A DNA stretch of 64,000 nucleotides, taken from positions 124,001 through 188,000 of the forward strand of contig NZ_JAKRFD010000009.1 in assembly GCF_022348185.1 (NCBI RefSeq), in the 5' to 3' direction. Source of the stretch: Epibacterium sp. Ofav1-8 (GTDB lineage: Bacteria; Pseudomonadota; Alphaproteobacteria; Rhodobacterales; Rhodobacteraceae). The translations under genes were made by a program, and so were the position numbers. Under the pieces are notes generated by a model, which saw only the letters and a list, made by a program, of their open reading frames with translations, was not told where the DNA came from and made no database searches. This document shows positions 4,505 to 23,075 of the stretch, in pieces (within the stretch, counting starts at the first letter, position 1; the number at the start of each line of letters is the position of its first letter).

Positions 4505-7500
4505 TTGGGGCGAGAACACAACAGCGCAAATGCAGTCAGCGGAGGAGGCTTCTCCGCCGATGATATTGCCGTGGTCGGCATGTCGGTCACCCTGCCCGGC
4601 GCATCCTCCATCCGCGCCTTCTGGGCCAATCTGCGCGATGGCATTGAGTCAATCGAGGTCGTCGACGAAGACAGCCTGCTCGCAGCCGGCGAACGCGCCG
4701 AAACCTTGCGCGATCCCAACTACGTGCCCGCCTCGGCCCGGCTGCAAGGCTTTGACGAATTTGACGCGGAGTTCTTTGGCTTTTCGCCCAAAGAGGCCGC
4801 GATCCTCGACCCGCAACACCGCAAGTTCCTCGAGGTCGCATGGGGCGCGATGGAGGATGCCGGTCACACCCCCGAGAGCCTGAAAGGCCAGGTCGGTGTC
4901 TATGCGGGCTGCGGCATGGGCAGCTATTTCTATTTCAACATCTGCTCGAACCCGGATCTGGTCGATGACGTGGGCATGTTCCTCTTGCGCCACACCGGCA
5001 ACGACAAGGATTTCCTGACCACGCGCGTCAGCCATGTCTTTGATCTCAAGGGACCATCGGTCAACGTGCAGACCGCCTGCTCCACCTCGCTGGTGGCGAT
5101 CCACTACGCCGCCGAGGCATTGCGCAAGGGCGAATGCGATATGGCGCTGGCCGGTGGCGTGACGATCGAACTGCCGCAGGGGCGCGGCTACCTCTACAAG
5201 GAAAACGAGATCCTGTCGCCCGACGGCCATTGCCACGCCTTTGACCACCGCGCGCAGGGCACGGTGTTCGGCTCTGGCGCGGGGGCCGTGGCGCTCCGGC
5301 GTCTCGGCGATGCGGTGGCCGATGGTGACCACATCTGGGCGGTCATCAAAGGCTCTGCGATCAACAACGATGGCGCGGCCAAGGCGGGATATCTGGCCCC
5401 TTCGGTGGATGGGCAATCCGCAGCGGTGCGCAAGGCGCTGACGGCTGCGCGGGTGAACCCCGAGACCATCGATTACGTCGAATGCCACGGCACCGGCACC
5501 TATATCGGCGACCCGATCGAGGTTGCCGCCCTTACGGACGCCTACCGCGACGGTACCGATGCAAAGGGCTATTGCCGGATCGGATCGGTCAAAACCAACA
5601 TCGGCCATCTGGACACGGCAGCTGGCGTGGCGGGGTTTGTGAAAACTGCACTCGCGCTGGAGAACAAATCGCTGCCGCCGTCGCTGGGGTATGAAAAACC
5701 CAATCCGACCATCGACTTTGAAACCTCGCCCTTCCGCGTGAACGATACGCTCTGCCCGTGGATTTCGCACAAAGGACCCCGGCGCGCCGCTGTGAATGCC
5801 CTTGGTGTCGGCGGCACCAATGCCCATGCGATCCTCGAAGAGGCCCCGGTGCGCGCGCCCTCCGAGGAAAGCGATTTCCCGTTTCAGGTGCTCTGTATTT
5901 CAGGCCAGACCAAGGCCGCGCTGGAGGCAAACACGCAGAACCTCGCGACCTACCTGCGCGCCAACCCCGATGTGGAGCTGGCGGATGTGGCCTACACGCT
6001 CAAGGAAGGTCGCCGCGGCTTTGCCAAACGTCGCGTGGTGGTGGCCGAAACCGCGACGGACGCCGCCGACATGCTGGAAGCCGCGAACCCGCGGGAGGTC
6101 TTCACCCACGGCCATCTCGGTGCGCATCCCGAGGTCGTGTTTATGTTCCCCGGCGGGGGCGCGCAATTTGCAGGCATGGCGCGCGACCTCTATGAGACGG
6201 AGCCGGTGTTTGCCGACTGGATGGATCAGGGGCTGGACCATCTGGAAAAGAGCCTCGATTTCGACATCCGCGCCCTGTGGTTGCCGGACCCCGGCGAGGA
6301 GACAAATGCTGATGCGGCGCTGCTGAAACCCTCGGTGCAATTGCCGCTCATCATGATCGTGGAATATGCGCTGGCGCAGCTCTGGATCAGCTGGGGCGTC
6401 CGGCCTGCCGCCATGGTGGGCCATTCCATGGGTGAAAACACTGCCGCCTGTCTGGCCGGTGTCATGAACTTTGAGGATTGCATCGACCTGGTGCAACTGC
6501 GGGGACGACTGTTTGACACGGTCGAGCCGGGCGGCATGTTGTCGATCTCGCTGCCGCTCTCTGAGGTCGAGACACTTGTGGGCGCGGATCTCGACATCGC
6601 CAGCGTAAACGCGCCCGAACTAACCGCTGTATCCGGCCCGAATGATCGCCTGGAGGCGCTGGCCGAGGACCTGCGCGCCCGCGATGTGGAGTTCCAGCGT
6701 ATCCCCATCGACATCGCCGCCCACAGCCGCATGCTGGAGCCGATCCTCGCGGCCTATGGCGATTTCCTGCGCCGTCTCGATCTGCAACCGCCGAACCTGC
6801 CGGTGATGTCGAACCGCACCGGCCAGCCGCTGACGCCGGAACAGGCCACCAGCGCCGACTACTGGGTTGAGCAACTGCGCAATACCGTGCGTTTTGCCGA
6901 TTGCATCGAAACGCTCGCAACCACCAAGGGCCGCGTCTACCTGGAGGTCGGCCCCGGCAAGGCCCTCAGCGCCTTGGCACAAATGTCGCCACAGGTTGCC
7001 TCCGGTCAGGTGCTCAGCTCTCTGCGTCACCCGGAACAGGATATCGCGGATGATGCCTATTTCTTTGGCATCATCGGCCGTCTCTGGGCCTGCGGGGTCG
7101 AGGCCGACTGGCCTCAGATCTGGGGCGATGCTCGCCGCAACCGCCTGAGCCTGCCCACCTATGCGTTCCAGCGTAGCCGCTATTTCATCGAACCCGGAAA
7201 GTCGGTGCAAGCGCCCGAGGTTGCCTTGCCCGCACGGCACGCGGACATTGCCGATTGGGGCTACCGCCCGGTCTGGCGGCCTCGTCTGGCCGATTGCGCG
7301 CTGGATGTGGAAAACGAACTCACGCTGGAGCCGCAGACCTGGCTGATCTTTGAGGACACCGCCGGACAGGCCGCCGCCTGCGCCGAGGCACTCGTTGCCG
7401 CCGGTCATCGGGTGGCCCGCGTGCGGGCTGGGGATACCTATGCGCAGCTTGCGCCCGATCTCTATCAACTGGCCCCGGAAGAAGGCCGGTTTGGTACCGA

Positions 7501-10500
7501 GGCCCTGCTGGCGGATCTGGCCGAGGCGGATCTTCTGCCGCAGCGGATCGCGCATTTCTGGCTGGTCACCGACACCGAGGATTTCCGCCCCGGCTCCTCC
7601 TTCTTTGATCGCAACATCGAGATGGGGCTGATGTCGCTCACCGCCTTGGGACAAGCGCTGGCGCAGGCAGAACTGCCGCATCCGGTACACCTCAGTGTGC
7701 TGACCACCGGTGCTGCGCAGGTGCGCGAGGAGCCCCTGCCCTATCCGGAAAAAGCAATGATCTCCGGCCCCGCCGGTGTGATCCCGCGCGAGATCCCCGG
7801 TGTCACCGTCGCGACCTGTGACATCGAGCTGCCGCAAACCCCTGCGGGCCTCTCAGCCCTCATATCCGGCACAAAACCCGCCCCAATCACGTCGCGTCTG
7901 CTCGAAGAACTGCTGGCCGCCCCCGGCAACCACGCCGCCGCCTGGCGTGGCGAAAAACGTCTGGAGCTTGACTATCGCCCCGTACCCCTCGCGGCACCAA
8001 CGGCAGGCGATCTGCCGCTGCAAACGGGGGGGCACTACCTCATAACCGGCGGCTACGGTGGCATCGGGCTGACGATCGCAGAGCACCTGATGCAGTCGTA
8101 TGAAGCGCGCATCACGCTCCTGTCCCGCGACGCCCTGCCACCGCGTGCCGAATGGGACCGCTACCTGCGCCGCCACAGCCCGGCTGACCGGATCGCAACC
8201 CGCATTCGCGCCGTTCAAAAACTTGAGGCGACCGGACGCGGCGAAGTGCTCACGCTCAGCGCCGATGTCTGCAACCTCCAGGACATGCGCAACGCGGCAG
8301 AGGCCGCCCGCGCCGCATTTGGCCCCATCACCGGCCTGTTCCACGGTGCAGGCCATATTGCCGACGCCCCCCTTCTGGCCAAGACAGATCGCCAGATCGC
8401 CGAGGTGCTCGCGCCCAAAGTGAACGGCCTGCGTGTGCTGGATCAGGTCTTCCCGGATGGCACGCTCGACCTGATGGTGCTGTTCTCCTCCTCCTCCACC
8501 GTGACGCGCCCTGCCGGGCAGGTGGATTACGTGGCCGCCAACGAATACCTCAACGCCTGGGCGAAATCCCGTCAGGGCGGGCAAACCCGCGTGATGGCCA
8601 TCGACTGGGGGATCTGGGCGGATGCCGGCATGGCAGCGGACGCTATGGCCGCCCGGCGCGGCGGCGCTGCCCCCTCGGACCCGCTGCCGTCAGAGGCCGC
8701 GCTTTGGCAGACACAAGGCTTTGATCGCTCCGGTGCACCGGTGTTCCGCAGCCGTTTTGACGCGCGCCGCGACTGGCTTCTGGACGATCACCGCACCCAT
8801 GATGGCACCGCCCTGATCCCCGGCACCGGCAATATCGAGCTGATTGTCGAAGGGCTGGATGCGCTCGGCAGCACCGCGCCCTACGAAATCCGGGACCTCT
8901 ATTTCCTGCAACCCTTTGTGGTTGAGGATCATATGCCACGCGAGGCGGTGATGCATCTGAGGCCCGGCGCTGCAGGCTATGAGGTGCAAATCCACGCGGA
9001 AACGACGGAGGGATATGCACGCACGGCGCAGGCTGAGGTGGTGACGCTGGACCACAGTGCCGCCACGACACTGGATCTGAATGCGATCTCCGCGCGCTGC
9101 ACGCCGCAAGAGGCAGATGTCGCGGGCGGACGCATCAGGTCCCCGCAAGAAGCCAACCTGCGGTTTGGTCCGCGCTGGCATGTTCTGCAATCAATGGCGC
9201 TTGGTCGGGACGAAGGGCTCGCGCAACTGTCCTTGCCTGATGTTGCAAAAAAAGACGGCGCGCTGTTGCATCCGGGGCTTCTGGATCTCGCAACCGGCTG
9301 GGCCATCGAACTTGCGCCGGGCTACGAGCCCAGCACGCTCTGGGTGCCGGTCTCCTATGGCACGATCCGGGTGCTCGCCCCGTTGACCAAGGACATCTAC
9401 AGCCATGTGCGGCTTGCGGAGGGGCAGGCCGAGCAAGGCGCCGTGTTGTTTGACATCACCCTGTCCGACCCGGCAGGGAATGTTTTGGTGGAAATCTCGC
9501 ATTTCCGCATGCAGCAGCTGAGCGGCGGCTTCAACCTTATGCCCACCCGCACCGACACCACAGCCGCCGCGCTTGGCCTGACCTCGGATGCGGAAACGCA
9601 GCCCCTGTCGCCGGACGAGCGTCGCCTGCTTGCCAATCTGGAGAATGGCATCCACACCAGCGAGGGCGGCATCGCGCTTGAACTTGCGCTCGCTGCGGGT
9701 CTGCCGCAGGTGATTGTCTCCTCGCTGGACCTCGACGCCCTGCGCCAGCAAGCAGCCACCAGCGGGCAAACCGCCCCCGAAGGTGAAGGGCAGAGCTTTG
9801 ACCGCCCCGATCTGGATACCGACTATGTCGCGCCCCGCACGGCAACCGAAGAGGCCCTCGCCGGTCATTTCGCCACCCTGCTGGGATTGTCGCAAATCGG
9901 GGTGGAGGACAGTTTCTTTGATCTGGGCGGTCATTCCCTCATCGCCGTGCGGCTCTTTGCGCAGATCAAACGCAGCTTCGGTGTCGAATTGCCGATGTCC
10001 GTGCTGTTTGATGCCCCCACCGTCGCCGCGCTGGCGGCCCGGATCGAGGCTGAAACCGGACCGATGCAGGCCCAGGGCGACACCGCAGGCGACCAAGAGG
10101 CGACACCACAGAGCTTCAGCCACCTCGTGCGCCTTGCCCCCGGCAAGGACAGCCAAGCCGCACCGATGTTCATCGTGGCGGGCATGTTTGGCAACGTGTT
10201 GAACCTGCGGCATCTGGCACAGATCCTTGGCGAGGATCGTCCGGTCTATGGGCTACAGGCGCGCGGCCTGATCGGCACGGATGAGCCGCACGAACGGATC
10301 GAGGACGCCGCCCGCGACTATATCGCCGAGATGCGACAGGTGCAGCCCGAAGGGCCTTATCTGATCGGTGGGTTTTCTGGCGGCGGCATCACCGCGTATG
10401 AGATCGCCCAGCAGCTCAAGGCCTCTGGCGAGGCGGTGGATGCGCTGGTGCTGCTGGATACGCCGCTGCCGGTGCGCCCTGACCTCAAACCCATTGACAA

Positions 10501-10969
10501 GGCGCTGATCAAGCTCGCTGAGATCCGCAGCAAAGGGCCGGGCTACCTCGGTGAATGGTTGCGCAACCGCATTGCCTGGGAAATTCGCAAGCGCCAGGAC
10601 CGCCCGGCGGAAACCGGCGAGAGCACCGGTTTCAACAACCGCAAGATCGAACTGGCCTTCCTGCGCGCGGTGGCCGCGTATGAGGTTCAGCCCTGGACGG
10701 GTCCGGTGACACTCTATCGACCTGTCCTGGACCGGCATTGGAAAGTCTCGGGTGGGCAATGGGTCAGCCGAGACCGTGAATACGTCTACGCGGACAACGA
10801 CTGGACCCGTTTTGCGCCGTCACTGATCGTGCGCGAGGTGCCGGGCGACCACGACGGTATGGTTCTGGTGCCCAACGTCAGCGTGCTCGGAAAAGAAATC
10901 CGCGATCTTCTCGGCCAAAGCGCACGGCAAAGCGCCGGGCCGCAGGACATCTCCAAGGCGGCGGAGTAA
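4505..10969 (+). CDS. Single-module type I polyketide synthase: KS-AT-KR-DH-ACP-TE
   Basis: A 2154-residue modular PKS. Domains by my count: KS ~20-445 (Cys192 in TACSTS, His328 in ECHGTG, His368 in NIGHLD); AT ~545-850 (Ser641 in GHSMGE; the specificity tetrad position reads IAAH, neither the malonyl HAFH nor methylmalonyl YASH form); KR ~910-1400 (TGGYGGIG at 1181-1188, Ser1331, Tyr1342, Asn1346); DH ~1420-1670 (His1429, Asp1594 in LLDLAT); ACP ~1780-1850 (Ser1811 in DLGGHSL); type I thioesterase ~1885-2140 (Ser1958 in GFSGG, His2116). All catalytic residues I looked for are present. DH follows KR, the reverse of canonical modules. The start is TTG 4505: the preceding in-frame stop is at 4466, no other start lies between, the KS core begins 20 residues in, and a GGGGG run lies 8 bases upstream. 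Heads a tightly packed seven-gene operon ending at 21629. It likely extends a chain handed over by the downstream NRPS and releases it. Confidence 0.93.
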   Translation: MGREHNSANAVSGGGFSADDIAVVGMSVTLPGASSIRAFWANLRDGIESIEVVDEDSLLAAGERAETLRDPNYVPASARLQGFDEFDAEFFGFSPKEAAILDPQHRKFLEVAWGAMEDAGHTPESLKGQVGVYAGCGMGSYFYFNICSNPDLVDDVGMFLLRHTGNDKDFLTTRVSHVFDLKGPSVNVQTACSTSLVAIHYAAEALRKGECDMALAGGVTIELPQGRGYLYKENEILSPDGHCHAFDHRAQGTVFGSGAGAVALRRLGDAVADGDHIWAVIKGSAINNDGAAKAGYLAPSVDGQSAAVRKALTAARVNPETIDYVECHGTGTYIGDPIEVAALTDAYRDGTDAKGYCRIGSVKTNIGHLDTAAGVAGFVKTALALENKSLPPSLGYEKPNPTIDFETSPFRVNDTLCPWISHKGPRRAAVNALGVGGTNAHAILEEAPVRAPSEESDFPFQVLCISGQTKAALEANTQNLATYLRANPDVELADVAYTLKEGRRGFAKRRVVVAETATDAADMLEAANPREVFTHGHLGAHPEVVFMFPGGGAQFAGMARDLYETEPVFADWMDQGLDHLEKSLDFDIRALWLPDPGEETNADAALLKPSVQLPLIMIVEYALAQLWISWGVRPAAMVGHSMGENTAACLAGVMNFEDCIDLVQLRGRLFDTVEPGGMLSISLPLSEVETLVGADLDIASVNAPELTAVSGPNDRLEALAEDLRARDVEFQRIPIDIAAHSRMLEPILAAYGDFLRRLDLQPPNLPVMSNRTGQPLTPEQATSADYWVEQLRNTVRFADCIETLATTKGRVYLEVGPGKALSALAQMSPQVASGQVLSSLRHPEQDIADDAYFFGIIGRLWACGVEADWPQIWGDARRNRLSLPTYAFQRSRYFIEPGKSVQAPEVALPARHADIADWGYRPVWRPRLADCALDVENELTLEPQTWLIFEDTAGQAAACAEALVAAGHRVARVRAGDTYAQLAPDLYQLAPEEGRFGTEALLADLAEADLLPQRIAHFWLVTDTEDFRPGSSFFDRNIEMGLMSLTALGQALAQAELPHPVHLSVLTTGAAQVREEPLPYPEKAMISGPAGVIPREIPGVTVATCDIELPQTPAGLSALISGTKPAPITSRLLEELLAAPGNHAAAWRGEKRLELDYRPVPLAAPTAGDLPLQTGGHYLITGGYGGIGLTIAEHLMQSYEARITLLSRDALPPRAEWDRYLRRHSPADRIATRIRAVQKLEATGRGEVLTLSADVCNLQDMRNAAEAARAAFGPITGLFHGAGHIADAPLLAKTDRQIAEVLAPKVNGLRVLDQVFPDGTLDLMVLFSSSSTVTRPAGQVDYVAANEYLNAWAKSRQGGQTRVMAIDWGIWADAGMAADAMAARRGGAAPSDPLPSEAALWQTQGFDRSGAPVFRSRFDARRDWLLDDHRTHDGTALIPGTGNIELIVEGLDALGSTAPYEIRDLYFLQPFVVEDHMPREAVMHLRPGAAGYEVQIHAETTEGYARTAQAEVVTLDHSAATTLDLNAISARCTPQEADVAGGRIRSPQEANLRFGPRWHVLQSMALGRDEGLAQLSLPDVAKKDGALLHPGLLDLATGWAIELAPGYEPSTLWVPVSYGTIRVLAPLTKDIYSHVRLAEGQAEQGAVLFDITLSDPAGNVLVEISHFRMQQLSGGFNLMPTRTDTTAAALGLTSDAETQPLSPDERRLLANLENGIHTSEGGIALELALAAGLPQVIVSSLDLDALRQQAATSGQTAPEGEGQSFDRPDLDTDYVAPRTATEEALAGHFATLLGLSQIGVEDSFFDLGGHSLIAVRLFAQIKRSFGVELPMSVLFDAPTVAALAARIEAETGPMQAQGDTAGDQEATPQSFSHLVRLAPGKDSQAAPMFIVAGMFGNVLNLRHLAQILGEDRPVYGLQARGLIGTDEPHERIEDAARDYIAEMRQVQPEGPYLIGGFSGGGITAYEIAQQLKASGEAVDALVLLDTPLPVRPDLKPIDKALIKLAEIRSKGPGYLGEWLRNRIAWEIRKRQDRPAETGESTGFNNRKIELAFLRAVAAYEVQPWTGPVTLYRPVLDRHWKVSGGQWVSRDREYVYADNDWTRFAPSLIVREVPGDHDGMVLVPNVSVLGKEIRDLLGQSARQSAGPQDISKAAE

Positions 10970-10972
10970 CCC

Positions 10973-11995
10973 ATGGCCGCCAACTCTATCCTCACGATCA
11001 TCCTGAACTTTCGCACGCCTGCAATGACGCTGCGCTCCGCAGAAGCGGCCTTGGAGGAAATGGAAGATCTGCCCGGCGAAGTGCTGATTATCGACAATGG
11101 ATCGGGCGATGGCTCTTTTGAGGCCCTGCGGGCCGGGGCGACGGCGCGCGGCTGGCTCGACAGCGGTCGCCTGCGCATTGAGGCCTCACCTGTCAACGGC
11201 GGCTTTGGTGCGGGCATGAACATCGGCTTTCGCGCGCGGCTTTCGGATGGGTCGCGCCCCGATTTCTACTACCTCCTCAACTCCGATGCCTTTCCCGAAC
11301 AGGACTGCATTCGCAGATTGCGGGACTTTCTACTGAGTGCTCCGGGTGCGGGGCTGGCGGGGTCGTATGTGCATGGCGAAGACGGCACGCCCCATTGCAC
11401 GCTGTTTCGCTTCCCAACCATCGCGAGCGAATTTGAAGGGGCCGCGCGCACCGGTGTGATCTCGCGCCTGCTGAAACACGCCATCGTGCCACTGGAGATC
11501 CCGGATGACGCACAACAAGTGGACTGGACCGCCGGGGCCAGCATGATGATCCGCCGCGAGGTCATCGAGGCCATCGGCGGCTTTGACGAGACGTTTTTTC
11601 TATACTTCGAGGAAACCGAACTCTGCCACCGTGCTGCACGTGCGGGCTGGCGGACGCATTATATCCCATACAGCACCGTTGCCCATGTGGGGTCGGCCTC
11701 AACCGGCATGAAGACATGGGCGCGCACACCGGAGTTCTGGCTGGACTCGCGGTTGCATTATTTCACGCAAACCCACGGTCCGATCTATGCGATTGGCGCG
11801 ACCCTTGCACGGCTGCTGGGCGGTGCGGTTTATGGTCTGCGCCGGCTGACCTCGGGCAAGCCCCGCGCCGATGCGCCCCATTTTCATCGCGACCTGCTGC
11901 GTCATCATTTCAAACGGTTGCTGCGCCCCCTGCCCGCGCCAAACCCGGCCCGGCCATTTGCGTCCGACGCCGTTCTGGAGGAACACAAGTCATGA
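10973..11995 (+). CDS. Family 2 glycosyltransferase (WbbL/rhamnosyltransferase-like)
   Basis: A 340-residue GT-A enzyme with no clear membrane segment. It opens with LTIILNFRTP and IIDNGSGDGS, has the NGGFGAGMNIGF loop typical of WbbL-like rhamnosyltransferases, and a metal-site region LLNSDA. The acceptor side is WTAGASMMIRR and GGFDETFFLYFEETELCHRA. It starts 3 bases after the PKS stop and its own stop overlaps the NRPS start as ATGA, so it is translated as part of the PKS/NRPS operon. Its position between the two assembly-line genes suggests that a sugar is joined to the assembly-line product, or that the product decorates a glycan. The rhamnose preference is only a family tendency. Confidence 0.88.
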   Translation: MAANSILTIILNFRTPAMTLRSAEAALEEMEDLPGEVLIIDNGSGDGSFEALRAGATARGWLDSGRLRIEASPVNGGFGAGMNIGFRARLSDGSRPDFYYLLNSDAFPEQDCIRRLRDFLLSAPGAGLAGSYVHGEDGTPHCTLFRFPTIASEFEGAARTGVISRLLKHAIVPLEIPDDAQQVDWTAGASMMIRREVIEAIGGFDETFFLYFEETELCHRAARAGWRTHYIPYSTVAHVGSASTGMKTWARTPEFWLDSRLHYFTQTHGPIYAIGATLARLLGGAVYGLRRLTSGKPRADAPHFHRDLLRHHFKRLLRPLPAPNPARPFASDAVLEEHKS

Positions 11996-14900: not shown

Positions 14901-16560
14901 ATTGCGCGAGGCGGGGCATGATCCGGCAGATTTCACCGTCACGCTCATGCTGCACACCTATCTGGCTGACACCCGCGAGGCCGCCCGCGAGGTGGCGCGC
15001 GAGCCGATGAAAGACTACCTGCGCTCTGCTGCGGGGCTCATCAAGCAATACGCCTGGGCCTTCCCGGCGTTCAAGAAACCCAAGGGCGTCGACAACCCGT
15101 TCGAGATGGATCTGGGCAGCCTCAGCACCGAGGAACTTGAAGCGATCCTCGATTTTGCCTTTGAGCGCTATTTCGAGGACTCCGGCCTCTTCGGCACAGT
15201 TGAGGATGCCGTGGCGCGGGTCGAAGACCTCAAACGCATTGGCGTGGATGAGGTGGCCTGCCTGATCGACTACGGCATCGCGCCGCATGTGGTGCTGGAG
15301 GGTCTGAAACCCCTCGCCGACGTGCTGCGCCGCGCCAATCGCGTACAGGAACTGGCAGCGGATGATTTCTCGCTCGCGGCCCAGATCGTGCGCCACGGCG
15401 TCACGCATATGCAATGCACCCCTTCAATGGCGCGGATGATCGCCACCGACGCGGACGCTGGCCCGGTGCTGGCGCGATTGCAGCATCTGCTGGTGGGCGG
15501 TGAGGCTCTGCCCGGTGATTTGGTGAACGCCCTGCGCAGTCAGACCCGCGCGACGCTTCACAACATGTACGGCCCGACCGAGACGACGATCTGGTCCACG
15601 GTCGAAACCCTTGACGGGACGCCGCAGGGGATCGCGCCCATCGGCACGCCTGTTGCCAATACCACCGTCTATGTCCTCGATGGCACGGATCAGCCGGTGC
15701 CGATCGGGGCGGCGGGTGAGTTGTGCATCGGAGGCGCGGGTGTGACCGCTGGCTACTGGCAACGCGCGGACCTCACGGCGGAGCGTTTCCCGGCTGATCC
15801 CTTCAGGGCCGGTCAGCAGATGTATCGCACCGGCGATCTCGTGCGCTGGCGCGCGGATGGCACGCTCGAGTTCCTCGGCCGCACCGACCATCAGGTCAAG
15901 ATCCGGGGCCAACGGATTGAACTCGGTGAAATCGAGGCCGCCCTGTCCGCGATGGATGGCGTGACAGCCGCCGTGGTCATCCCGCGCAAAATCGGCACGG
16001 ACGAGCGTCTGGTCGGCTATGTGACCGCCTCTGCGCCGTTTTCCGAAGCGCAGGCCAAGACCCATCTGGCGCGACATCTGTCAGAGGTCATGGTGCCTGC
16101 ACATATCGTGACGCTTGAGGCGTTCCCGCTGACCCCCAACAAAAAGATCGACCGCAAGGCCCTGCCCGACCCGCAACCGGCCCGGTCCGGACCCCGCCCG
16201 GTGGCGGCGGCGCCACACTCGCATACGCAGGCGCAAATCGCCGGGATCTGGCAAAAGCTCCTTGGTGTAAGCGACGTGGCGCAGGGCGACAACTTCTTCG
16301 CCCTTGGCGGCCATTCCCTGCTCGCGGTTCAGGCGCACCGCGACATCCGCAACGCGCTCGCCGTCGACCGGCTGTCCATCACCGACATCTTCCGCTTTCC
16401 CACTCTTGATGGGCTGGCGGATCACATCGAATATCTTGCAAACGGTGCCACAGCCGCACAAAATGATCCCCCAAGCTCCGTTGCCGCCCCCGCCGGGCGC
16501 GCAGAGACCATGTCAAAACGGCGCGCGATGCGTGCCAACCGCAAGGCCAAATCCGGATGA
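11992..16560 (+). CDS. NRPS: formyltransferase - remnant C - A domain with embedded luciferase-like monooxygenase - PCP
   Basis: A 1522-residue protein starting at ATG 11992 (ATGA overlap with the upstream gene; GGAGGAA about 10 bases upstream). Residues ~1-300 form a formyltransferase fold with its triad intact: Asn86 and His88 in NFHDGPLP, Asp124 in GGVDEGD. Residues ~310-515 resemble the C-terminal half of a condensation domain but have no HHxxxDG, so it is not expected to condense. The A domain has A1 (~554), A3 YTSGSTGLPKG (~674), A4 SFDIS (~718), A5 NMYGPTE (~1191), A6-A8 and A10 NKKIDRKAL. Between A4 and A5, residues ~755-1110 are an FMN-dependent luciferase-like monooxygenase of the MupA/Atu3671 type. 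PCP Ser1442 lies in LGGHSLL. No TE; the tail is basic. Reading the specificity positions by eye gives D-I-L-Q-L-G-M-I-W, close to glycine codes. Best seen as an initiation module making an N-formylated and/or oxidised glycyl thioester. Confidence 0.92.
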   Translation: MTFSTVVIGNESLLIGCSEALLTRGHEIRAVVSESAEITSWAASKGLQVLAAPSDIEGDFDWLLSIANLRVLPEAVIAKARRGAVNFHDGPLPERAGLNTPNWAILEGAAEHGITWHLIEGGVDEGDILAQRRFAVSEDETAFSLNSKCYGAALDSFAEVLDQLESGTLNRQPQDLSRRHYHARADRPEAAGTLRFDRPVAELLRVVRGLDMGGYWNPLTTAKIRMADQFVAVGQAHAAKGAGAAGEILAVTGDDVTIACADGAIRLGALTTLSGTPLSLRDLLRAGDVLPALAESDINALENAAQTSQTPEAYWRRALSGMLPLPVPLQTAEQGDAQTADITLPVECPPATLAAAALAWVLRSLGETEGSIALSLPRLQSAAKSGLMADWVPLNAQAHEAFSTLATRAEAVLTRAEDQGGFATDLILRAPEISVQAPPAVVLCLDTDSVPDHAQLALIQSGDRVQLQSRHLSQQALSLLAARLECLLAALPSQADNALSALPLLPDTEREQMLEQWNATDADYPAEQTIHAAFEAQVARTPDATALVFEDQHLSYAALNQRANALARHLQEQGVKPGSHVGVYLRRSMDLVVATLGILKAGAAYVPLDPAYPGDRIAHYITDSQASVIVTHAALAPDLPDSRAQSLHLDTLDLSTPAEPVSEGTAEDLAYLIYTSGSTGLPKGVMVRHRNVANFFTAMDARIPHQAGDTWLAVTSLSFDISVLELFWTLARGFKLVLSSDESRLQLSNGPIALSDRKMDFNLYYWGNDDGAGEKKYELLLEGAKFADAHGFNAVWTPERHFHAFGGPYPNPSVTGAAVAAVTRNIGVRAGSCVAPLHHPARIAEEWAVIDNLTGGRAGIGFASGWQPDDFILRPENTPPANKPALFEALETVRKLWRGEEVGFPRKDGGLHSVVTQPRPVSDELAVWVTTAGNPDTWREAGRVGANVLTHLLGQSIDEVGDKIALYHAALREAGHDPADFTVTLMLHTYLADTREAAREVAREPMKDYLRSAAGLIKQYAWAFPAFKKPKGVDNPFEMDLGSLSTEELEAILDFAFERYFEDSGLFGTVEDAVARVEDLKRIGVDEVACLIDYGIAPHVVLEGLKPLADVLRRANRVQELAADDFSLAAQIVRHGVTHMQCTPSMARMIATDADAGPVLARLQHLLVGGEALPGDLVNALRSQTRATLHNMYGPTETTIWSTVETLDGTPQGIAPIGTPVANTTVYVLDGTDQPVPIGAAGELCIGGAGVTAGYWQRADLTAERFPADPFRAGQQMYRTGDLVRWRADGTLEFLGRTDHQVKIRGQRIELGEIEAALSAMDGVTAAVVIPRKIGTDERLVGYVTASAPFSEAQAKTHLARHLSEVMVPAHIVTLEAFPLTPNKKIDRKALPDPQPARSGPRPVAAAPHSHTQAQIAGIWQKLLGVSDVAQGDNFFALGGHSLLAVQAHRDIRNALAVDRLSITDIFRFPTLDGLADHIEYLANGATAAQNDPPSSVAAPAGRAETMSKRRAMRANRKAKSG

Positions 16561-17276
16561 CGCAGGCGCAACAGGATACCTCCGATCTCGGCTCCGACCG
16601 GCTGTCGCTGCTGCGGTCGCTGCTCTCGAAAGCGGTCGCCATCGGCAGCGCCGATCCGCAAGGCCCGCTGCCGGCCCCCTTCCCCGAAGAGCGCGCCTGC
16701 CTGTCTGCCAACGCGGTGGACAAGCGCCGCCGGGAATTTGCCGCCGGTCGCGCCGCCGCCCATCAGGCAATGCGCGCGTTGAACCGGGAGCCCGCCCCCA
16801 TCCTGATCGGCCCGAAACGCGCGCCCCTCTGGCCCGCGGGGGTGTCGGGCAGCATCACCCATTGCCGCAGCTGCGCGCTTGCGGCCATTGCCCGCCACAG
16901 CACCCATCCCGGTCTCGGCATCGATGTGGAGGAAGACACGCCGCTCTCCGCCGATCTCTGGCCTTCCATCGCCAATGCGACCGAACGCGACTGGCTTGCC
17001 CGGCATCCGAACCCGGGTCAAGCGGGCAAGCTGCTGTTCTCCGCCAAGGAAGCCGCCTACAAGGCGCAATACGCCATTTCGCAGCGGTTCTTCGGCTTTG
17101 ACGGGCTGGACCTGACGTTTGATGACGGGGCGACTGGTGCGGGCGGGTTCACCGCAACCTTCACAGGCGAACAGCCCCCCTTTCGCGCCGGCGCCCGGCT
17201 GCAGGGGCGATTTGCCATCGGATGCGGCGTCATCATCACCGCGGTCGAAATCCTGAACAACGAGCCCTGCACATGA
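16557..17276 (+). CDS. 4'-phosphopantetheinyl transferase (EntD/Sfp superfamily)
   Basis: A 239-residue PPTase that would convert apo ACP/PCP domains to the holo form by adding phosphopantetheine from CoA. Visible motifs are KRRREFAAGR (residues ~60-70), GSITH (~100), the magnesium-binding GIDVEED (~120) and FSAKEAAYKAQY (~160), arranged as in EntD-type enzymes. It overlaps the NRPS stop by ATGA and itself overlaps the next gene by ATGA. Having a dedicated PPTase inside the operon implies that the PKS ACP (Ser1811) and NRPS PCP (Ser1442) are its natural substrates and that both are active. No truncation or missing motif was seen. Confidence 0.92.
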   Translation: MTQAQQDTSDLGSDRLSLLRSLLSKAVAIGSADPQGPLPAPFPEERACLSANAVDKRRREFAAGRAAAHQAMRALNREPAPILIGPKRAPLWPAGVSGSITHCRSCALAAIARHSTHPGLGIDVEEDTPLSADLWPSIANATERDWLARHPNPGQAGKLLFSAKEAAYKAQYAISQRFFGFDGLDLTFDDGATGAGGFTATFTGEQPPFRAGARLQGRFAIGCGVIITAVEILNNEPCT

Positions 17277-18259
17277 TGTCCGTGCTGAGGCGCCTTCCCC
17301 GCCGTGCCCTGCTGGCCGCCACGGCGCTTATTCCGGTCGGTCTCCTGGGGATCTGGGGGTTCACCTCCGCACAGCCCGCGCCGCAGGACCTGCCTGCGCT
17401 GGAGGCGCCAGAGGCCCCCTTGCGGGTGTACCACCTGGGGCATTCCCTCGTCGGACAGAACATCCCGCATCTCCTGGCGCAGTTTGCCGGTGAGGGCCAT
17501 CGCTACAACATGCAACGCGGATCCGGCACCTCCCTGCGGGCACATTGGGAAGACTCCGAACCCATTCTCGATTTCGATGCCGTCAACAAGGCTCCGGTCT
17601 GGCGCGATCCCAAAGAAGCGCTGGCCGCAGGCGAATACGACGCCGTGATCCTGACCGAGATGGTCGAACTGCGCGATGCGCTTGATTACTTTGACGGCGC
17701 AAAATACCTGCATCGCTGGGCCAGCCTGGCCCGCTCCGCCAACCCGGACGTGCGGCTCTATCTCTACGAGACCTGGCATCGTCTGGATGATCCCGTGGGC
17801 TGGCTGGAGCGGATTGACAGCGATCTCGACACGCTCTGGCTGGGCCGGCTGACCGCGACGGACACCCGCAGCCGCCCCGAGACAGCACCGATCTACCTTA
17901 TCCCGGGAGGGCAGGTCCTGGCCGCTGTGGTGCGCGCCGCCGAGGCGGGACAGATCCCCGGTCTCGACCAGCGCGCGCAGCTCTTTGCCCGCGCAGCCGA
18001 TGGCAGCCTCGACCAGATCCACCTCAGCCCGCTTGGGGAATATATCATCGCGCTGACCCACTATGCCGTGCTGTACCACCGGTCGCCGGAGGGTCTGCCA
18101 CATCAGGTCACGCTCTTTGATGGCACCGCCGTCTCTGCCCTCGACGCCGAGGGCGCGGCCAGGGTGCAGGCGCTGGTCTGGGAAGTCGTCACCCGCCTGC
18201 CCCGCACCGGCGTGCAGCCTGCGGTGGCGGTGCCGCCAGCCGAGGACCCGGAGACATGA
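17273..18259 (+). CDS. Exported or membrane-anchored SGNH/GDSL-like hydrolase (paralogue of the next gene's N-terminal half)
   Basis: About 328 residues from ATG 17273, which overlaps the PPTase stop. The N-terminus (LRRLPRRALLAATALIPVGLLGIWGF) is a signal peptide or anchor, so the rest is probably periplasmic. A GDS-like block I reads LGHSLVG (~residue 56-62), and an Asp-x-x-His block V reads DQIHLS (Asp247, His250), consistent with an SGNH esterase or acyltransferase fold. It shares LRxxWE, ILTE, a WH pair and a GGQ/TGQ element with the first ~260 residues of the downstream protein, which suggests tandem duplication. In polysaccharide loci this fold often adds or removes O-acyl groups, but the substrate is unknown here. 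An alternative is a carbohydrate-binding protein with a degenerate site. Confidence 0.7.
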   Translation: MMSVLRRLPRRALLAATALIPVGLLGIWGFTSAQPAPQDLPALEAPEAPLRVYHLGHSLVGQNIPHLLAQFAGEGHRYNMQRGSGTSLRAHWEDSEPILDFDAVNKAPVWRDPKEALAAGEYDAVILTEMVELRDALDYFDGAKYLHRWASLARSANPDVRLYLYETWHRLDDPVGWLERIDSDLDTLWLGRLTATDTRSRPETAPIYLIPGGQVLAAVVRAAEAGQIPGLDQRAQLFARAADGSLDQIHLSPLGEYIIALTHYAVLYHRSPEGLPHQVTLFDGTAVSALDAEGAARVQALVWEVVTRLPRTGVQPAVAVPPAEDPET

Positions 18260-20793
18260 GCGCCACCGACCTGCTCAGTGCTGTCGTCATGATCGGCCAT
18301 TCGCTGATCGGACCGGAGAATCCCCGCATGCTGCAACAGCTGCTGGCGGCCGGGCAGGACGGCAGACCGGTAGTGGAATACCAGATCATCAATGGCGCGC
18401 CTCTGCGCTACAACTGGGAACACGCCGACAAGGCGCAGGGGATCAACGCGCGCGACCGCTTGGCCACGGCGCCCGTCGATGCGCTGATCGTGACCGAAGC
18501 GGTGCCGCTCGCCAATCATCTGCGCTGGAGCAATACCGAACAGGCGGTGGTGAATTTCTACTCCCTCGCCGCCGAGAGCAATCCCGGTGTCACCCTCTAT
18601 GTCCAGGAGGGCTGGCACAGCCTGCTGAGCGGCAGCGGCGAGGAGGTGCCTTTCGACGATGGCGGGGATGTTCCCTGGCGAGACCGGCTCGACAATGATT
18701 TGCCGCGCTGGCGGGGCATCGTCGACAAGGTCGCAGCCCGCACCGGAGGCGATATTCGTCTGCTGCCGACGGGTCAGGCGCTTGGCCGTCTGGCGGATGC
18801 GATCGAGGCCGGGACCGTGCCCGGGCTGCGCAGCATTCAGGACGTGTTCTCCGACGACATCCATCCAAACGACATCGGGTTCTACTATCTTGCGCTGGTG
18901 CAATACGCGGTCCTGACCGGCGCAGCGCCGGACGGGTTGCCACGTGTCCTGCAGACGGAATGGGGCACCTCCTACACCGCGCCCTCACCGGAGCTGGCGC
19001 AACGGTTGCAGGAACTCGCCGCAAATGCCGCGGTCGACGCCCCCCAGCGCACGGCCCTGCCGCCCGATCCGGTGGCATTGCCGAGCGATCCGATCCCGGT
19101 TGCGCTCAACGCCGCGCCCGACCGCTTTGACATGGCGGGGCCGCGCCCGGAGGTCCGCCAGCAGCCCGTTGCGATGAACCTGGCGGCCCTGCGTGACTGG
19201 AGCCCGCAGGCGCCCTTTCTGGATCATTTCAAAACCGCACGCAGCTGGATCGGCCATCTGCCGGGGCGCTGGGGCGGGGTGACCGAACAAGAGCTGCGCG
19301 CGGCGGGCTATCTCGACCCACACGGCTGGCCGCTGGCCATTCCGCCCGAACTGGGTTCGATCGGCACGGTGCTGCTGACCGATCTGCCGCCAACGGCCAC
19401 GGGCCTTGCCGGGCGCTATGTGCTGCGGTTTGACGGCGACGGCATCGTCGAAGTGGGCGGTCGCGCCACCCAGGTGCGCTATGGAAAGGGCGAGGTCTCC
19501 TTTGACTTCACCCCCGGCGAAGGCGCGGTCGACATCCGCATTCAACGCAGCGACCGCGAAGGCACCGGCGATTATGTCCGCAATATCACCGTGGTGCGCG
19601 AAGAGGATCTGGACGCCTTTGCCCGGGGCGCCCTGTTCAACCCCGACTGGCTCGACAAGATCGAAGGCTTTGCGGCGCTGCGGTTCATGGATTGGATGGA
19701 GACCAACAACTCCGACCAGGTGGGCTGGGAAGACCGCCCGCGCGTCGCCGATTACACCTGGACCCGCAAGGGGGTTCCCGCCGAGGTGCTGGTGACGCTT
19801 GCCAACCGGATCGGCGCGGATGCCTGGTTTACCCTGCCGCATAAGGTCGATGACACCTATGCGCGCAACTTCGCCGAGCTTGTGCACGGGGGGCTGGACG
19901 AAGACCTCACCGCCTATGTGGAGTATTCCAACGAGGTCTGGAACTGGCAGTTCCAGCAGGCGCAATGGGCGGATGATCAGGCCCGCGACGCCTGGGGCAG
20001 CGATGGGCTCTGGCTGCAGTACTACGCCGGCCGGGCAAGCGACATCGCGGCGATCTGGACCGAGGTCTTTTCGGACGGGCGCGCCGATGCTGACCTGTCG
20101 CACCGGCTGGTGCGGGTGATCTCCACCCAGACCGGCTGGCTCGGCCTGGAGGAACAGATCCTGACCGCGCCCATCTGGACCGCCGAGGATCCCGCGCGTC
20201 AGGCGCCCTACCACAGCTTTGATGCCTATGCGGTCACCGGCTATTTCGGCGCGTTCCTGGGCACCCAGGACCATGCCCCGATGGTCCGCGCCTGGATCGC
20301 CGACAGTCTGGATCGCGCGCGTCAGGCGGCTGCGGAACAGGGGCTTCGGGGCGCGGCGGCCCGCGATTATGTCGCGGCGCATCGCTTTGACGTTGCCGTG
20401 TCACAGGCTGCGGCCGAATTGCAGGATGGGCTGAACGCGGCACAATCGGAGGGAACGCTCGACGATCTGCTGACCCGCGTCCTGCCCTACCACGCGGAGG
20501 TTGCACGGGAACACGACCTCGACCTCATCATGTATGAGGGCGGCACCCATGTCGTCGGTCACGGGCCGCTGGTCGACGATGACATGCTGACCGAGTTTTT
20601 CGTCCACCTGAACTACACGGCGGAGATGGCCGAACTGTACCGCCGGCTCCTGAATGCCTGGCCGGATCTTGGCGGCACGCTGTTCGGGGCCTATTCGGAT
20701 GTCTCCGTCGCGGGGCGTTGGGGCAGCTGGGGCGCCTTGCGCACGCTGTCAGACAGCAACCCGCGCTGGGACGTGCTGGAGGCGGCCAAGTGA
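18256..20793 (+). CDS. Two-domain protein: SGNH-like N-terminus fused to clan GH-A-like glycoside hydrolase domain
   Basis: 845 residues. Residues ~10-260 are SGNH-like (IGHSLIG near 13-19, DDIHPND in the block V position) and clearly related to the preceding gene. A linker and small beta domain follow (~300-450; RYVLRFDGDG, DIRIQRS). Residues ~455-845 look like a TIM-barrel glycosidase: EYSNEVWNW carries an Asn-Glu pair (Glu560) like the acid/base of clan GH-A, and IMYEGGTH (Glu761) fits the nucleophile strand. No signal peptide is visible, unlike the neighbour, so its location is uncertain. Starts by ATGA overlap. It could trim or transglycosylate the polysaccharide, or bind glycan without catalysis; the glycosidase reading is inference from two motif neighbourhoods. 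Confidence 0.6.
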   Translation: MSATDLLSAVVMIGHSLIGPENPRMLQQLLAAGQDGRPVVEYQIINGAPLRYNWEHADKAQGINARDRLATAPVDALIVTEAVPLANHLRWSNTEQAVVNFYSLAAESNPGVTLYVQEGWHSLLSGSGEEVPFDDGGDVPWRDRLDNDLPRWRGIVDKVAARTGGDIRLLPTGQALGRLADAIEAGTVPGLRSIQDVFSDDIHPNDIGFYYLALVQYAVLTGAAPDGLPRVLQTEWGTSYTAPSPELAQRLQELAANAAVDAPQRTALPPDPVALPSDPIPVALNAAPDRFDMAGPRPEVRQQPVAMNLAALRDWSPQAPFLDHFKTARSWIGHLPGRWGGVTEQELRAAGYLDPHGWPLAIPPELGSIGTVLLTDLPPTATGLAGRYVLRFDGDGIVEVGGRATQVRYGKGEVSFDFTPGEGAVDIRIQRSDREGTGDYVRNITVVREEDLDAFARGALFNPDWLDKIEGFAALRFMDWMETNNSDQVGWEDRPRVADYTWTRKGVPAEVLVTLANRIGADAWFTLPHKVDDTYARNFAELVHGGLDEDLTAYVEYSNEVWNWQFQQAQWADDQARDAWGSDGLWLQYYAGRASDIAAIWTEVFSDGRADADLSHRLVRVISTQTGWLGLEEQILTAPIWTAEDPARQAPYHSFDAYAVTGYFGAFLGTQDHAPMVRAWIADSLDRARQAAAEQGLRGAAARDYVAAHRFDVAVSQAAAELQDGLNAAQSEGTLDDLLTRVLPYHAEVAREHDLDLIMYEGGTHVVGHGPLVDDDMLTEFFVHLNYTAEMAELYRRLLNAWPDLGGTLFGAYSDVSVAGRWGSWGALRTLSDSNPRWDVLEAAK

Positions 20794-21629
20794 ACCACCT
20801 GCTGTCGGTCTTGATCCCGGCCCACAACGAGGCGGACTATATCGCAAGCTGCCTGGCGGCGCTCTTTGCCTCCGAACCGCTCCCTGCCGATGTCAATGTC
20901 GAGGTTCTGGTGCTGGCGAACGGCTGCACGGACGAGACCGCCAACCGCGCCCGCGCCTGCACACCGCCCCCCGGCTGGGCGCTGCATGTGCTGGAACTGG
21001 CCAAAGGCGACAAGCTGGCCGCCCTGAACCAGGGCGATGCCCAAGCGCAGGGCGATATGCTTGTCTATCTGGACGCCGATGTGACCGTCGACCCTGCCCT
21101 CTTGCCGCAGATCGCCCTGAGCCTGCACCGGGTGACCGGGCCCGCCTACAGGGGCGGATCCCCCCGGGTCGCGGCGGCCCAGAGCATCGTCACGCGCGCC
21201 TACGCCAGGGTCTGGCAAAACCTGCCCTTCGTGCAGGAAGGGGTGCCCGGTTTTGGGGTGTTTGCGATGAACCGCGCCGGGCGGCAACGCTGGGAACACT
21301 GGCCCGCGATCATCTCGGACGACACCTTCGCCCGGCTCCAGTTCACGCCGCAGGAACGTCAGCGCCTTTCGGCCGGCTACACCTGGCCCATGGTCGAGGG
21401 GTTTCGCAATCTGGTGCGCGTCCGGCGGCGGCAGGATCAGGGCGTCGCGGAAATCTCCCGCCGGTTCCCTGATCTCTTGCGCAACGATGACAAGGTCCCG
21501 GTCACGCTGTCTCGGCTGCTTCGGATCGCGGGGCGCCACCCTGTTGGATTACTCGTCTATCTTGCGGTGGCCGTGGCCGTCCGCTCGCCGCTTTTTGCCA
21601 ATCGCTCCAACTGGGAGCGGGGACGCTAG
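20790..21629 (+). CDS. Family 2 glycosyltransferase, membrane-associated
   Basis: 279 residues from GTG 20790, which overlaps the previous stop as GTGA; the frame is open further upstream but that region belongs to the preceding gene. GT-A motifs: VLIPAHNEADY, VLANGCTDET, the KLAALNQGDAQAQGD loop and YLDADVTVD (DxD-type). VPGFGVFAMNR and ISDDTFARLQF form the acceptor side. A C-terminal hydrophobic stretch (PVGLLVYLAVAVAV) suggests membrane association. It is the last gene of the PKS/NRPS operon and converges on a GT4 gene 42 bases away. Donor sugar unknown. Confidence 0.85.
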   Translation: MNHLLSVLIPAHNEADYIASCLAALFASEPLPADVNVEVLVLANGCTDETANRARACTPPPGWALHVLELAKGDKLAALNQGDAQAQGDMLVYLDADVTVDPALLPQIALSLHRVTGPAYRGGSPRVAAAQSIVTRAYARVWQNLPFVQEGVPGFGVFAMNRAGRQRWEHWPAIISDDTFARLQFTPQERQRLSAGYTWPMVEGFRNLVRVRRRQDQGVAEISRRFPDLLRNDDKVPVTLSRLLRIAGRHPVGLLVYLAVAVAVRSPLFANRSNWERGR

Positions 21630-21671: not shown

Positions 21672-22883
21672 TCAGGCGTCTGCCTTGATCGCCTCGGCAA
21701 AATGTGCGGCCAGCTTGCCTGCTTCATGATCGATGTCATGGCGTTGCAACACCCGCTCCCGTGCAGCGCGGCCGAGGCGGTCCAACCCGCTGTGCGGTGT
21801 GTTGGCCAGATCCACCAGCGCCTGCGCCAGCGCATCGACATCCCCCGCGGGCACCAGCCAGCCGGTCTCTCCCGGCTGCACCAGCTCGGGCGTGCCGGCG
21901 ACATAAGTGGCCAGCACCGGGCGCGCGGAGGCCATCGCCTCCATGATCACCATCGGCAGCCCCTCCGCAAACGAGGGCATGACCAGCGCATGCGCCGCCT
22001 CCAGCTGCGCCCGGACCTCCGCCTCGGTGAGCCAGCCGGTGAGTGTCACATGCGCAGACAGATCGAGACGCGCGATCTCGGCCTCCAGCGCGCCGCGCAT
22101 CTCACCGTCGCCCACCAGCGCCAGATGCAGGTCCGGGACCTGCCGCACGGCGCGCGCCAAGGCCTGCACCAGCAACATCTGCCCCTTTTGTTCGACGAAA
22201 CGGCCAATGCAGATCAGCCTGACCGGCCCCTCCGGCAGCGGCTTGGGCGCGGCAAAGCGGTCCGGTTCGATGCCACAATGGACCACCTTGATCCGCGACC
22301 AGGCGCCAAAGGACGCCCAGCGGCTCAGCTGGCTGCGGCCAAAACTGGAGATCGCCACGGCAAACCGGGCCCGGTCGACCTTCTGTCCCAGCGCAAGGCT
22401 GTGGGGCGCGTCGAATTCCTCCGGCCCATGGGTGGTGAAACTGTAACCCGGCCCCCCCAGCGCATGCGCCAGCATGGAAACCGTGGTGGCATTGGTGCCG
22501 AAATGGGCGTGTAGATGCGCGCACTGCTGCCGGTCGCAGATCCGGCGCACCATCGCCGCTTCCAGCAGATAGATGAGGGCACGCCCCCGCGCCCCGCTGA
22601 TGTGCCCCAGTCGCAACGCCAGCCGGACCGCGCGCCAGCAGCGCTGCGGCGCGCGCGGAACATAGGCCAGAAACGCCCACAGCAGACGCGCCGCCCCGAA
22701 CCGCAGGACATAGTGGCACCGCTCCGCTTCTGCGCGGTCCCCGGGGTCCGTCAGCTCCTGTGTCCCCGGGCGCATCGGCAGGCGCACCACCTCGATGCCT
22801 CGGCGCTCCAGCGCATGGATCTCACGCCGAATGAAGCTCTGGGAGGGCTGCGGATAGGTGTTCAGCACATATGCAATCTTCAC
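21672..22883 (-). CDS. Family 4 glycosyltransferase (GT-B)
   Basis: 403 residues from GTG 22883, chosen because AAGGAAAG lies about 10 bases upstream and the family-typical VKIAYVLNTYPQPSQSFI starts there; the open frame continues 87 bases further upstream. The C-terminal half has the GT4 hallmarks IGRFVEQKG, the glycine-rich VGDGEMR and the EX7E motif in SFAEGLPMVIMEAMA, followed by AGTPELV and GWLVPAGD. Retaining GT4 enzymes use nucleotide sugars on the cytoplasmic face. Being on the minus strand, it is not part of the PKS operon but lies between it and the Wzx-like gene, so it most likely builds the same repeat unit. Confidence 0.87.
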   Translation of the reverse strand: MKIAYVLNTYPQPSQSFIRREIHALERRGIEVVRLPMRPGTQELTDPGDRAEAERCHYVLRFGAARLLWAFLAYVPRAPQRCWRAVRLALRLGHISGARGRALIYLLEAAMVRRICDRQQCAHLHAHFGTNATTVSMLAHALGGPGYSFTTHGPEEFDAPHSLALGQKVDRARFAVAISSFGRSQLSRWASFGAWSRIKVVHCGIEPDRFAAPKPLPEGPVRLICIGRFVEQKGQMLLVQALARAVRQVPDLHLALVGDGEMRGALEAEIARLDLSAHVTLTGWLTEAEVRAQLEAAHALVMPSFAEGLPMVIMEAMASARPVLATYVAGTPELVQPGETGWLVPAGDVDALAQALVDLANTPHSGLDRLGRAARERVLQRHDIDHEAGKLAAHFAEAIKADA

Positions 22884-23075
22884 ACGTCGGTCTTTCCTTG
22901 CCTGTCTTCCGGCCAAGACTACGCGTTTGCCCGGGTTTTGCCCAGCGCCACGACCCGCGACGGGCGGCAAAAAAGATCAGCGTCCTAGCACTTTAGCACA
23001 GAACCCCGCCGGACGGCCGCATCGCAATTGACCTCGCCCGCCGCGCCGCCTAGCCTGCAGCCGATCCGCAACCAC

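Follow-up and report, generated by a model that had tools for sequence, protein, structure and literature searches.

A Wzx/Wzy-type exopolysaccharide locus with its own PKS/NRPS assembly line, a candidate source of acyl substituents

What does a polyketide synthase (PKS) do beside a non-ribosomal peptide synthetase (NRPS) in the middle of a polysaccharide locus? The question is raised by a 64,000-nucleotide stretch of Epibacterium sp. Ofav1-8 DNA (hereafter the window; the genome is 4.76 Mb in 37 contigs, and its homologues place it in the Rhodobacteraceae, close to Tritonibacter and Phaeobacter). Seven of its genes, coding for a PKS, a glycosyltransferase (GT2a), an NRPS, a 4'-phosphopantetheinyl transferase (PPTase), two SGNH proteins (SGNH1 and SGNH-GH) and a second glycosyltransferase (GT2b), are enclosed by a Wzx/Wzy-type exopolysaccharide (EPS) locus. 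A reading made from the sequence alone had proposed that this assembly line makes either a substituent of the glycan or a glycosylated small molecule exported with it. Here we follow the coupling of the two gene sets across genomes, and consider it moderately probable that the locus carries its own PKS/NRPS line making an acyl substituent for the glycan.

The seven-gene run spans positions 4505-21629 of the window, all on the + strand, within a polysaccharide locus of 920-27836 (Table 1). As first described, its genes are tightly packed: the PKS/GT2a junction is a 3-base gap and the remaining five junctions are 4-base ATGA/GTGA overlaps, which hold with the corrected starts of the NRPS, PPTase, SGNH1, SGNH-GH and GT2b genes given in the table. 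The left flank consists of GT2_up (+), GT26 (-) and a Wzy-like gene (+), the right flank of GT4 (-), Wzx (+), a Wzz-like gene (-), a kinase gene (-) and a priming transferase gene (-). The surroundings named in the sequence-only reading (priming transferase, Wzx, Wzz-like, GT26 and GT4) were all recovered by Pfam/NCBIfam matches; the BY-type tyrosine kinase is a further member, absent from the earlier list.

The arrangement is widely kept. Among the best 80 named of 553 confirmed loci found through SGNH-GH, 58 have the NRPS, and in 52 of these, at the score limits used, the 12-gene series that runs from PKS to priming transferase is complete, with order and orientation unchanged, so the seven-gene arrangement is not due to chance. 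The remaining six are without one to four genes, three of them (loci L071, L072 and L076) being cut by contig ends. No NRPS lies within reach in the other 22 loci, several of which are on short contigs and many of which have the full 10 kb upstream.

Co-occurrence was surveyed in a single draw of 198 Rhodobacteraceae genomes, each from a different genus. The NRPS (E<=1e-100) was found in 73 genomes, Wzy (E<=1e-10) in 75, Wzx (E<=1e-40) in 71 and SGNH-GH (E<=1e-3; partial and SGNH1-only matches counted) in 75. NRPS and SGNH-GH occur together in 70 genomes, SGNH-GH alone in 5, NRPS alone in 3 and neither in 120, counts whose Fisher value ignores kinship; the NRPS is joined by Wzy in 68 genomes and by Wzx in 67. 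Kinship was corrected for with independent pairs on supported branches of an rpoB protein tree of 100 of the 198 genomes. On this tree the NRPS changes at least 22 times. In 15 independent NRPS pairs, Wzy changed in the same direction in 11.6 on average, Wzx in 12.1 and SGNH-GH in 13.2, and none changed in the opposite direction (median p 0.0005, 0.0005 and 0.0002, respectively).

Co-inheritance is matched by co-localisation: in 61 of the 73 genomes the best-placed NRPS starts at most 40 kb from the start of Wzy or Wzx. Eight of the other 12 (genomes G022, G028, G062, G098, G118, G144, G147, G155, G158, G166, G185 and G186) are in at least 250 contigs. Wzy or Wzx is on another contig in nine of the 12, and three (G022, G144 and G158) match neither. 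The PKS/NRPS set is thus coupled with the polysaccharide genes, as had been claimed from a single window, across 198 genomes and in phylogeny-corrected pairs. A class-wide look found the NRPS at E<=1e-150 in 5 of 289 genomes, four of them from the family of the window, its own genome included.

The association also recurs in other layouts. In G020, G088 and G190, SGNH-GH, GT4, GT2b and Wzx precede the PKS, while Wzz and the kinase follow the PPTase. Six further genomes (G026, G034, G121, G135, G175 and G178) carry PKS-GT2a-NRPS with Wzy within about 15 kb, and in the four fetched further (G034, G121, G175 and G178) other polysaccharide genes stand beside Wzy. One genome, G126 (L173-L176), has two NRPS copies, on contigs C6 and C47, each beside polysaccharide genes.

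Plasmids carry the set too. A search matched 29 plasmid records, of which 15 were listed and seven, not chosen at random, were opened; polysaccharide-type genes lie beside the PKS/NRPS in all seven, three of which come from Hyphomicrobiales. Plasmid pW43C of Parasedimentitalea marina holds most of the locus, with no Wzx in the fetched stretch, which stops at the record start. On two Paracoccus plasmids PKS-GT2a-NRPS belongs to a polysaccharide locus of different arrangement, and a Ruegeria plasmid has this triad beside polysaccharide-type genes, a short PPTase match and a transposase, with no Wzx or Wzy match. In the Hyphomicrobiales plasmids (Aminobacter, Shinella and an unannotated Rhizobium) the PKS and NRPS-PPTase are divergent and a Wzx match of 27-32% is present; a GT26 match is nearby on the Shinella and Rhizobium plasmids, and the PKS/NRPS domain make-up of Aminobacter and Shinella is the same as in the window. 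All seven plasmids show the formyltransferase and adenylation (A) domain motifs of the NRPS in identical or almost identical form. Two of the copies are matched in pieces: the two pieces of SGNH-GH matched on pW43C (L181, 25492-27399) correspond to different parts of the query, so that this copy may be broken or internally shortened, and on the Rhizobium sp. BG6 plasmid (L185, 7328-13755) the PKS match consists of two pieces that abut, a sign that the reading frame may be interrupted there.

Comparison with Tritonibacter mobilis (L039, L196) reveals an 11.4-kb block of 91-99% nucleotide identity per bin, flanked by sequence of 54-82% identity (200-base bins on the left, 100-base bins on the right) in a region otherwise at about 70%. 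Both ends fall inside genes, near the start of the PKS and just before the peptidyl carrier protein (PCP) domain of the NRPS. A near-identical block between diverged flanks suggests exchange as a unit, one that took in the PKS and GT2a with most of the NRPS but left out the neighbouring polysaccharide genes.

Such mobility could also be expected if the PKS/NRPS were an independent natural product cluster that merely occupies a genomic hot spot shared with polysaccharide genes, and the stretches fetched from G144 and G479 do contain related synthetases without polysaccharide genes. However, a chance neighbour would hardly share the gains and losses of Wzy, Wzx and SGNH-GH after correction for phylogeny, also where the parts lie far apart, nor would the association be expected to recur on plasmids, in further layouts and with the genes reordered. 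We therefore regard an independent cluster as highly improbable.

If the line serves the polysaccharide, what would it make? The PKS contains the active-site motifs TACSTSL, HGTGT, GHSMGE, GGYGGIG, GGHSL and GFSGG; we take GHSMGE, the motif of its acyltransferase (AT) domain, as a sign of malonyl preference. A Pfam domain search matched ketoreductase (KR) and dehydratase (DH) domains and no enoylreductase domain, a combination of established families that predicts an enoyl group. The NRPS consists of a formyltransferase (PF00551 1.1e-14), an AMP-binding domain split by a luciferase-like monooxygenase, and a PCP; among solved structures, linear gramicidin synthetase A is its best relative. The monooxygenase, inserted after the A4-type motif FDISVLEL, is of the MupA/Atu3671 type (TIGR04020, 471.5 bits against a cut-off of 244.45). 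Condensation-domain families gave no match at E<=1e-3, which makes the NRPS look like a starter (loading) module; a terminal role was set aside on the same ground.

The specificity residues of the A domain, in what we take to be GrsA position numbering, read D-I-L-Q-L-G-M-I-W, with K supplied by the A10-type motif NKKIDRK. These features are well conserved among 120 listed NRPS homologues: the formyltransferase motif NFHDGPLP (NxH) is present in all 120, FDISVLEL in 115 (the pattern is unmatched in 5), and the code ends in MIW in 118 and in MVW in 2. A first-pass extraction of the code gave DILQLGM in 99, DILQMGM in 14 and other or unread results in 7. DILQLGMIW equals the published Gly/MOX code, which makes the A domain one of glycine type; in the available part of PMC12283262, four Gly A domains with a monooxygenase all share DILQLGMIWK.

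Formyltransferase-A(Gly)-PCP modules have been proposed to start PKS chains with formylglycine in oxazolomycin- and conglobatin-type lines (PMC5764310, PMC4504003, as far as their available text goes), and by the same logic the formyltransferase and Gly A domain here predict a formylglycyl unit. By its domains and motifs, then, the NRPS looks like an N-formylglycine loading module, with both loading and formylation predicted. The oxazolomycin, conglobatin and phthoxazolin lines share with ours a loading module of formyltransferase, glycine-type A domain and PCP that feeds a PKS, and a loading module with formyltransferase is described for rhizopodin too (PMC5764310, PMC4504003). In contrast to these lines, the present one lies among polysaccharide genes, has a single PKS module with its own thioesterase (TE) and carries a monooxygenase in the A domain. 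The oxazolomycin, conglobatin and phthoxazolin lines also contain an OzmP/CongE-type cyclodehydratase; in our locus no gene is annotated so, and no search was aimed at one.

The monooxygenase leaves room for a different chemistry. Members of its MupA/Atu3671-type subfamily have been proposed to hydroxylate (PMC8739492, available part), and Gly modules that contain a monooxygenase are reported to hydroxylate first and then to cut the carbon backbone, leaving a terminal amide (PMC12283262). By analogy, the coupling could be the same as we propose while the formylglycyl unit is cleaved, so that a glyoxylyl- or amide-type fragment is transferred instead of a formamido-enoyl chain. The modules share the code DILQLGMIW(K), and here too a TIGR04020 domain lies inside the A domain; but PMC12283262 speaks in its introduction of insertions between A8 and A9 and describes the monooxygenase as leading to terminal amides, whereas ours follows the A4-type FDISVLEL in a module that is N-formylated and starter-like. 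Moreover, a PKS with KR, DH and TE is kept in Aminobacter and Shinella as well. We think cleavage distinctly unlikely, if somewhat more credible than a lipid-like product, to which we turn now.

From the RkpA/WcbR-type PKSs of rhizobial and Burkholderia capsules one may imagine a lipid-like product that primes or anchors the polysaccharide or caps its chain ends, given that type I PKS genes (rkpA/wcbR) are known inside those capsule clusters (PMC3908369), a likeness to the present locus. The available part of PMC3908369 mentions no NRPS partner for RkpA/WcbR, and the gene set here is of Wzx/Wzy type. In addition, the predicted starter is a formylated amino acid, and a single KS-AT-KR-DH module without enoylreductase would yield a short, polar chain unless it iterates. 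A lipid-like product is for these reasons very unlikely in our view, and an acyl substituent remains the preferred reading.

The polysaccharide side of the locus is of ordinary Wzx/Wzy-dependent make-up: priming transferase, flippase, polymerase candidate, chain-length protein, kinase and several glycosyltransferases. The first two are secure by their Pfam matches; the chain-length protein and kinase are clear relatives of TIGR03007 and TIGR03018, below the curated cut-offs, and the Parasedimentitalea marina relative of the kinase carries a CpsD/CapB annotation. The Wzy-like protein matches Wzy_C (PF04932) weakly, with E 0.0051 and 17.1 bits against a Pfam cut-off of 31.7, and had no match in NCBIfam or in a PDB sequence search. 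In 17 of 19 fetched upstream regions its gene precedes the PKS and is codirectional with it, as the immediate neighbour in 15; a GT4-like piece stands between the two in L149 and L152. An open reading frame on the - strand (2721-4049) was dropped as the Wzy-like gene: its translation is hydrophilic, it is a shadow of the overlapping 2802-4268 frame on the + strand, and a PDB sequence search with it gave no match. What sets this locus apart from ordinary ones is the complete PKS/NRPS/PPTase assembly line, and the lack of an outer-membrane exporter in the locus.

With two GT2 genes in the operon, one of them between PKS and NRPS and within the block common to Tritonibacter mobilis, the line could instead supply a small molecule to which GT2a/GT2b add sugar for export by Wzx; the product would then be a glycolipid or a glycosylated natural product and not a substituent of the polymer. 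Against this, Wzy and Wzx are both co-inherited with the NRPS, and Wzz, the kinase, the priming transferase and GT26 belong to the same conserved locus, all of which fits a polymer. Weak relatives of GT2a (31-36%) also occur in the loci (L161-L169) of seven genomes with polysaccharide genes and no PKS/NRPS, and adjoin the Wzy relative in six of the seven, which weakens the notion of GT2a as a gene of the assembly line only. Of the two products first proposed, then, the substituent fits better and the glycosylated small molecule is unlikely, although we regard it as the strongest of the alternatives; the choice of product is one that we infer.

Which protein could attach the acyl group? SGNH1 and SGNH-GH had no match in Pfam, NCBIfam, PHROGs or PADLOC, nor in PDB sequence searches. 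Their predicted structures show an SGNH/DUF4886 fold in both and a clan GH-A barrel in the C-terminal part of SGNH-GH, and the catalytic Ser and His of the SGNH fold are present in the invariant GHSL and DxIH. Judged by these models, one or the other is perhaps the acyltransferase to the glycan.

The gene content, with an assembly line that looks intact, the conserved catalytic motifs, and the joint inheritance and location with polysaccharide genes are shown by the sequences. On this basis we propose a pathway, whose product, order of steps, acceptor and transferring enzyme we infer. The PPTase would activate the carrier domains. The NRPS would load glycine and N-formylate it, and its built-in monooxygenase may oxidise the alpha carbon. 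Taking over this starter, the PKS would add a malonyl unit, reduce it and dehydrate it to a formamido-enoyl chain of about C4. Either the PKS TE, or SGNH1 or the SGNH domain of SGNH-GH, might then transfer the acyl chain onto a sugar, whether in the repeat unit or in the polymer. Meanwhile GT2a, GT2b, GT4, GT26 and GT2_up would build the lipid-linked repeat, to be flipped by Wzx and polymerised by the Wzy-like protein, with the Wzz-like protein and kinase setting chain length and the GH-A domain trimming. Since the set lies within polysaccharide genes and is gained and lost together with them, it probably makes an unusual chemical tag for the sugary coat.

A number of findings weigh against this reading. 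Five of the 198 genomes have SGNH-GH matches and no NRPS, and seven (G077, G080, G092, G104, G137, G174 and G189) have Wzy relatives and polysaccharide genes with no NRPS at the threshold used, the Wzy relatives being more distant (34-43% in the fetched loci, 40-45% in the genome survey). Conversely, G022, G098, G144, G155 and G158 carry the NRPS without a Wzy match; only G144 of these is in the rpoB tree. In G144 (L155) the 20 kb fetched show the NRPS relative in the company of other PKS and NRPS matches and contain no polysaccharide set, and in G479 the NRPS and PKS are accompanied by only a GT4 match in 40 kb, again with no polysaccharide set. SGNH1-SGNH-GH-GT2b is on another contig, or at least 165 kb away from PKS/NRPS, in the six genomes with Wzy within about 15 kb, and the pW43C copy is without a PPTase match. 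As for the proteins, no outer-membrane exporter (Wza) was found at the locus: the two PF02563 matches of the genome fall elsewhere, on contigs C36 and C10. By fold, the SGNH proteins resemble carbohydrate esterases more closely than the one acyltransferase among the matches listed; the SGNH-GH of the window has no signal peptide by eye, while three rearranged relatives have one; and none of the enzymes of the locus was identified as an acyltransferase to sugars.

Some of these points limit the reading more than others. We hold an exporter in the same locus to be non-essential, and by the PF02563 matches the genome is predicted to have one. Because the seven genomes named above have related polysaccharide genes but lack the NRPS, we reject the view that the polysaccharide pathway requires PKS/NRPS. 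The reverse patterns, an operon that travels without EPS genes or EPS genes that usually lack the operon, do not hold in general, with the NRPS present in 68 of 75 Wzy and 67 of 71 Wzx genomes; G144 and G479 in the first case, and the seven genomes in the second, are exceptions. The G144 locus itself is perhaps an ordinary natural product cluster, and the formyltransferase motif was not found in its NRPS relative.

Has such a system been described? Its separate parts are already known. In Phaeobacter inhibens, a PKS (Inhi_1972) and an NRPS (Inhi_1974), two locus tags apart, are listed under secondary metabolism without a product, and no link to EPS is drawn in the available part of PMC4062626; they are probably the same pair as in the window. 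T. mobilis AK171 is reported to have a T1PKS and an NRPS-like cluster without similarity to known clusters (PMC11225332, available part). In searches of an open-access library, which leaves subscription journals outside its scope, no listed title or abstract opening gives an account of a PKS/NRPS working with a Wzx/Wzy polysaccharide. The searches found the combination undescribed, in agreement with the earlier statement that no system of exactly this composition was known.

We lend about even credence to the fuller claim: a dedicated, exchangeable PKS/NRPS cassette that decorates exopolysaccharide with an N-formylglycine-derived, perhaps alpha-oxidised, unsaturated acyl group, and that occurs in some Hyphomicrobiales as well as in more than one in three of the sampled Rhodobacteraceae genera. 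If true, it would establish a class of glycan decoration by thiotemplate biosynthesis, join the usually separate fields of thiotemplate natural products and surface polysaccharides, and give a common orphan PKS/NRPS of marine bacteria its place of action. It would also supply an exchangeable glycan-decorating cassette and predict an enoyl or formamido group on EPS, which could affect adhesion, metal binding and algal contact. For genome mining it counsels caution: a PKS/NRPS match of this type need not imply a secreted small molecule.

Table 1 Features of the locus, in positions of the window
Feature	Position	Strand	Basis
GT2_up, GT2 glycosyltransferase of the polysaccharide locus	920-1909	+	PF00535 3.4e-14; close to GT26 and Wzy in many relatives
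GT26 (WecG/TagA/CpsF) glycosyltransferase	1911-2696	-	PF03808 3.6e-45
Wzy-like polymerase candidate, 488 aa, ~10 hydrophobic segments	2802-4268	+	Weak Wzy_C PF04932 match
Type I PKS, KS-AT-KR-DH-ACP-TE, 2154 aa	4505-10969	+	Pfam domains, active-site motifs
Block near-identical to Tritonibacter mobilis, PKS-GT2a-NRPS	~4650-16100		Edges approximate
GT2a, GT2 glycosyltransferase	10973-11995	+	PF13641/PF00535
NRPS, loading-type module formyltransferase-A (Gly code)-PCP, 1522 aa	11992-16560	+	Domain matches, motifs
MupA/Atu3671-type luciferase-like monooxygenase domain in NRPS A domain	14272-15324	+	TIGR04020 471.5 bits
PPTase, 4'-phosphopantetheinyl transferase (4PPT_N/ACPS)	16557-17276	+	PF17837 5.1e-25, PF01648 8.3e-13
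SGNH1, membrane-anchored or exported SGNH hydrolase/acyltransferase candidate	17273-18259	+	
SGNH-GH (SGNH2-GH, SGNH2), SGNH domain and clan GH-A glycosidase barrel	18256-20793	+	
GT2b, GT2 glycosyltransferase, GTG start	20790-21629	+	PF00535 1.9e-16
GT4 glycosyltransferase	21672-22970	-	PF13692 1.8e-37
Wzx-type flippase	23028-24443	+	PF13440 9.6e-44, PF01943 2.3e-19
Wzz-like chain-length protein	24536-25810	-	TIGR03007 1e-18, PF02706 3.3e-4, both below curated cut-offs
BY-type tyrosine kinase (Wzc/CpsD-like)	25880-27055	-	TIGR03018 2e-19, TIGR01007 8.9e-15, below cut-offs
Priming polyprenyl-phosphate sugar transferase	27123-27836	-	PF02397 3.3e-58

Elsewhere in the window, about 25 kb from the locus, positions 52873-56004 code for a 1043-aa protein with RTX calcium-binding repeats and a Hint domain, and a gene for cytochrome bd oxidase subunit I is found at 44319-45761.

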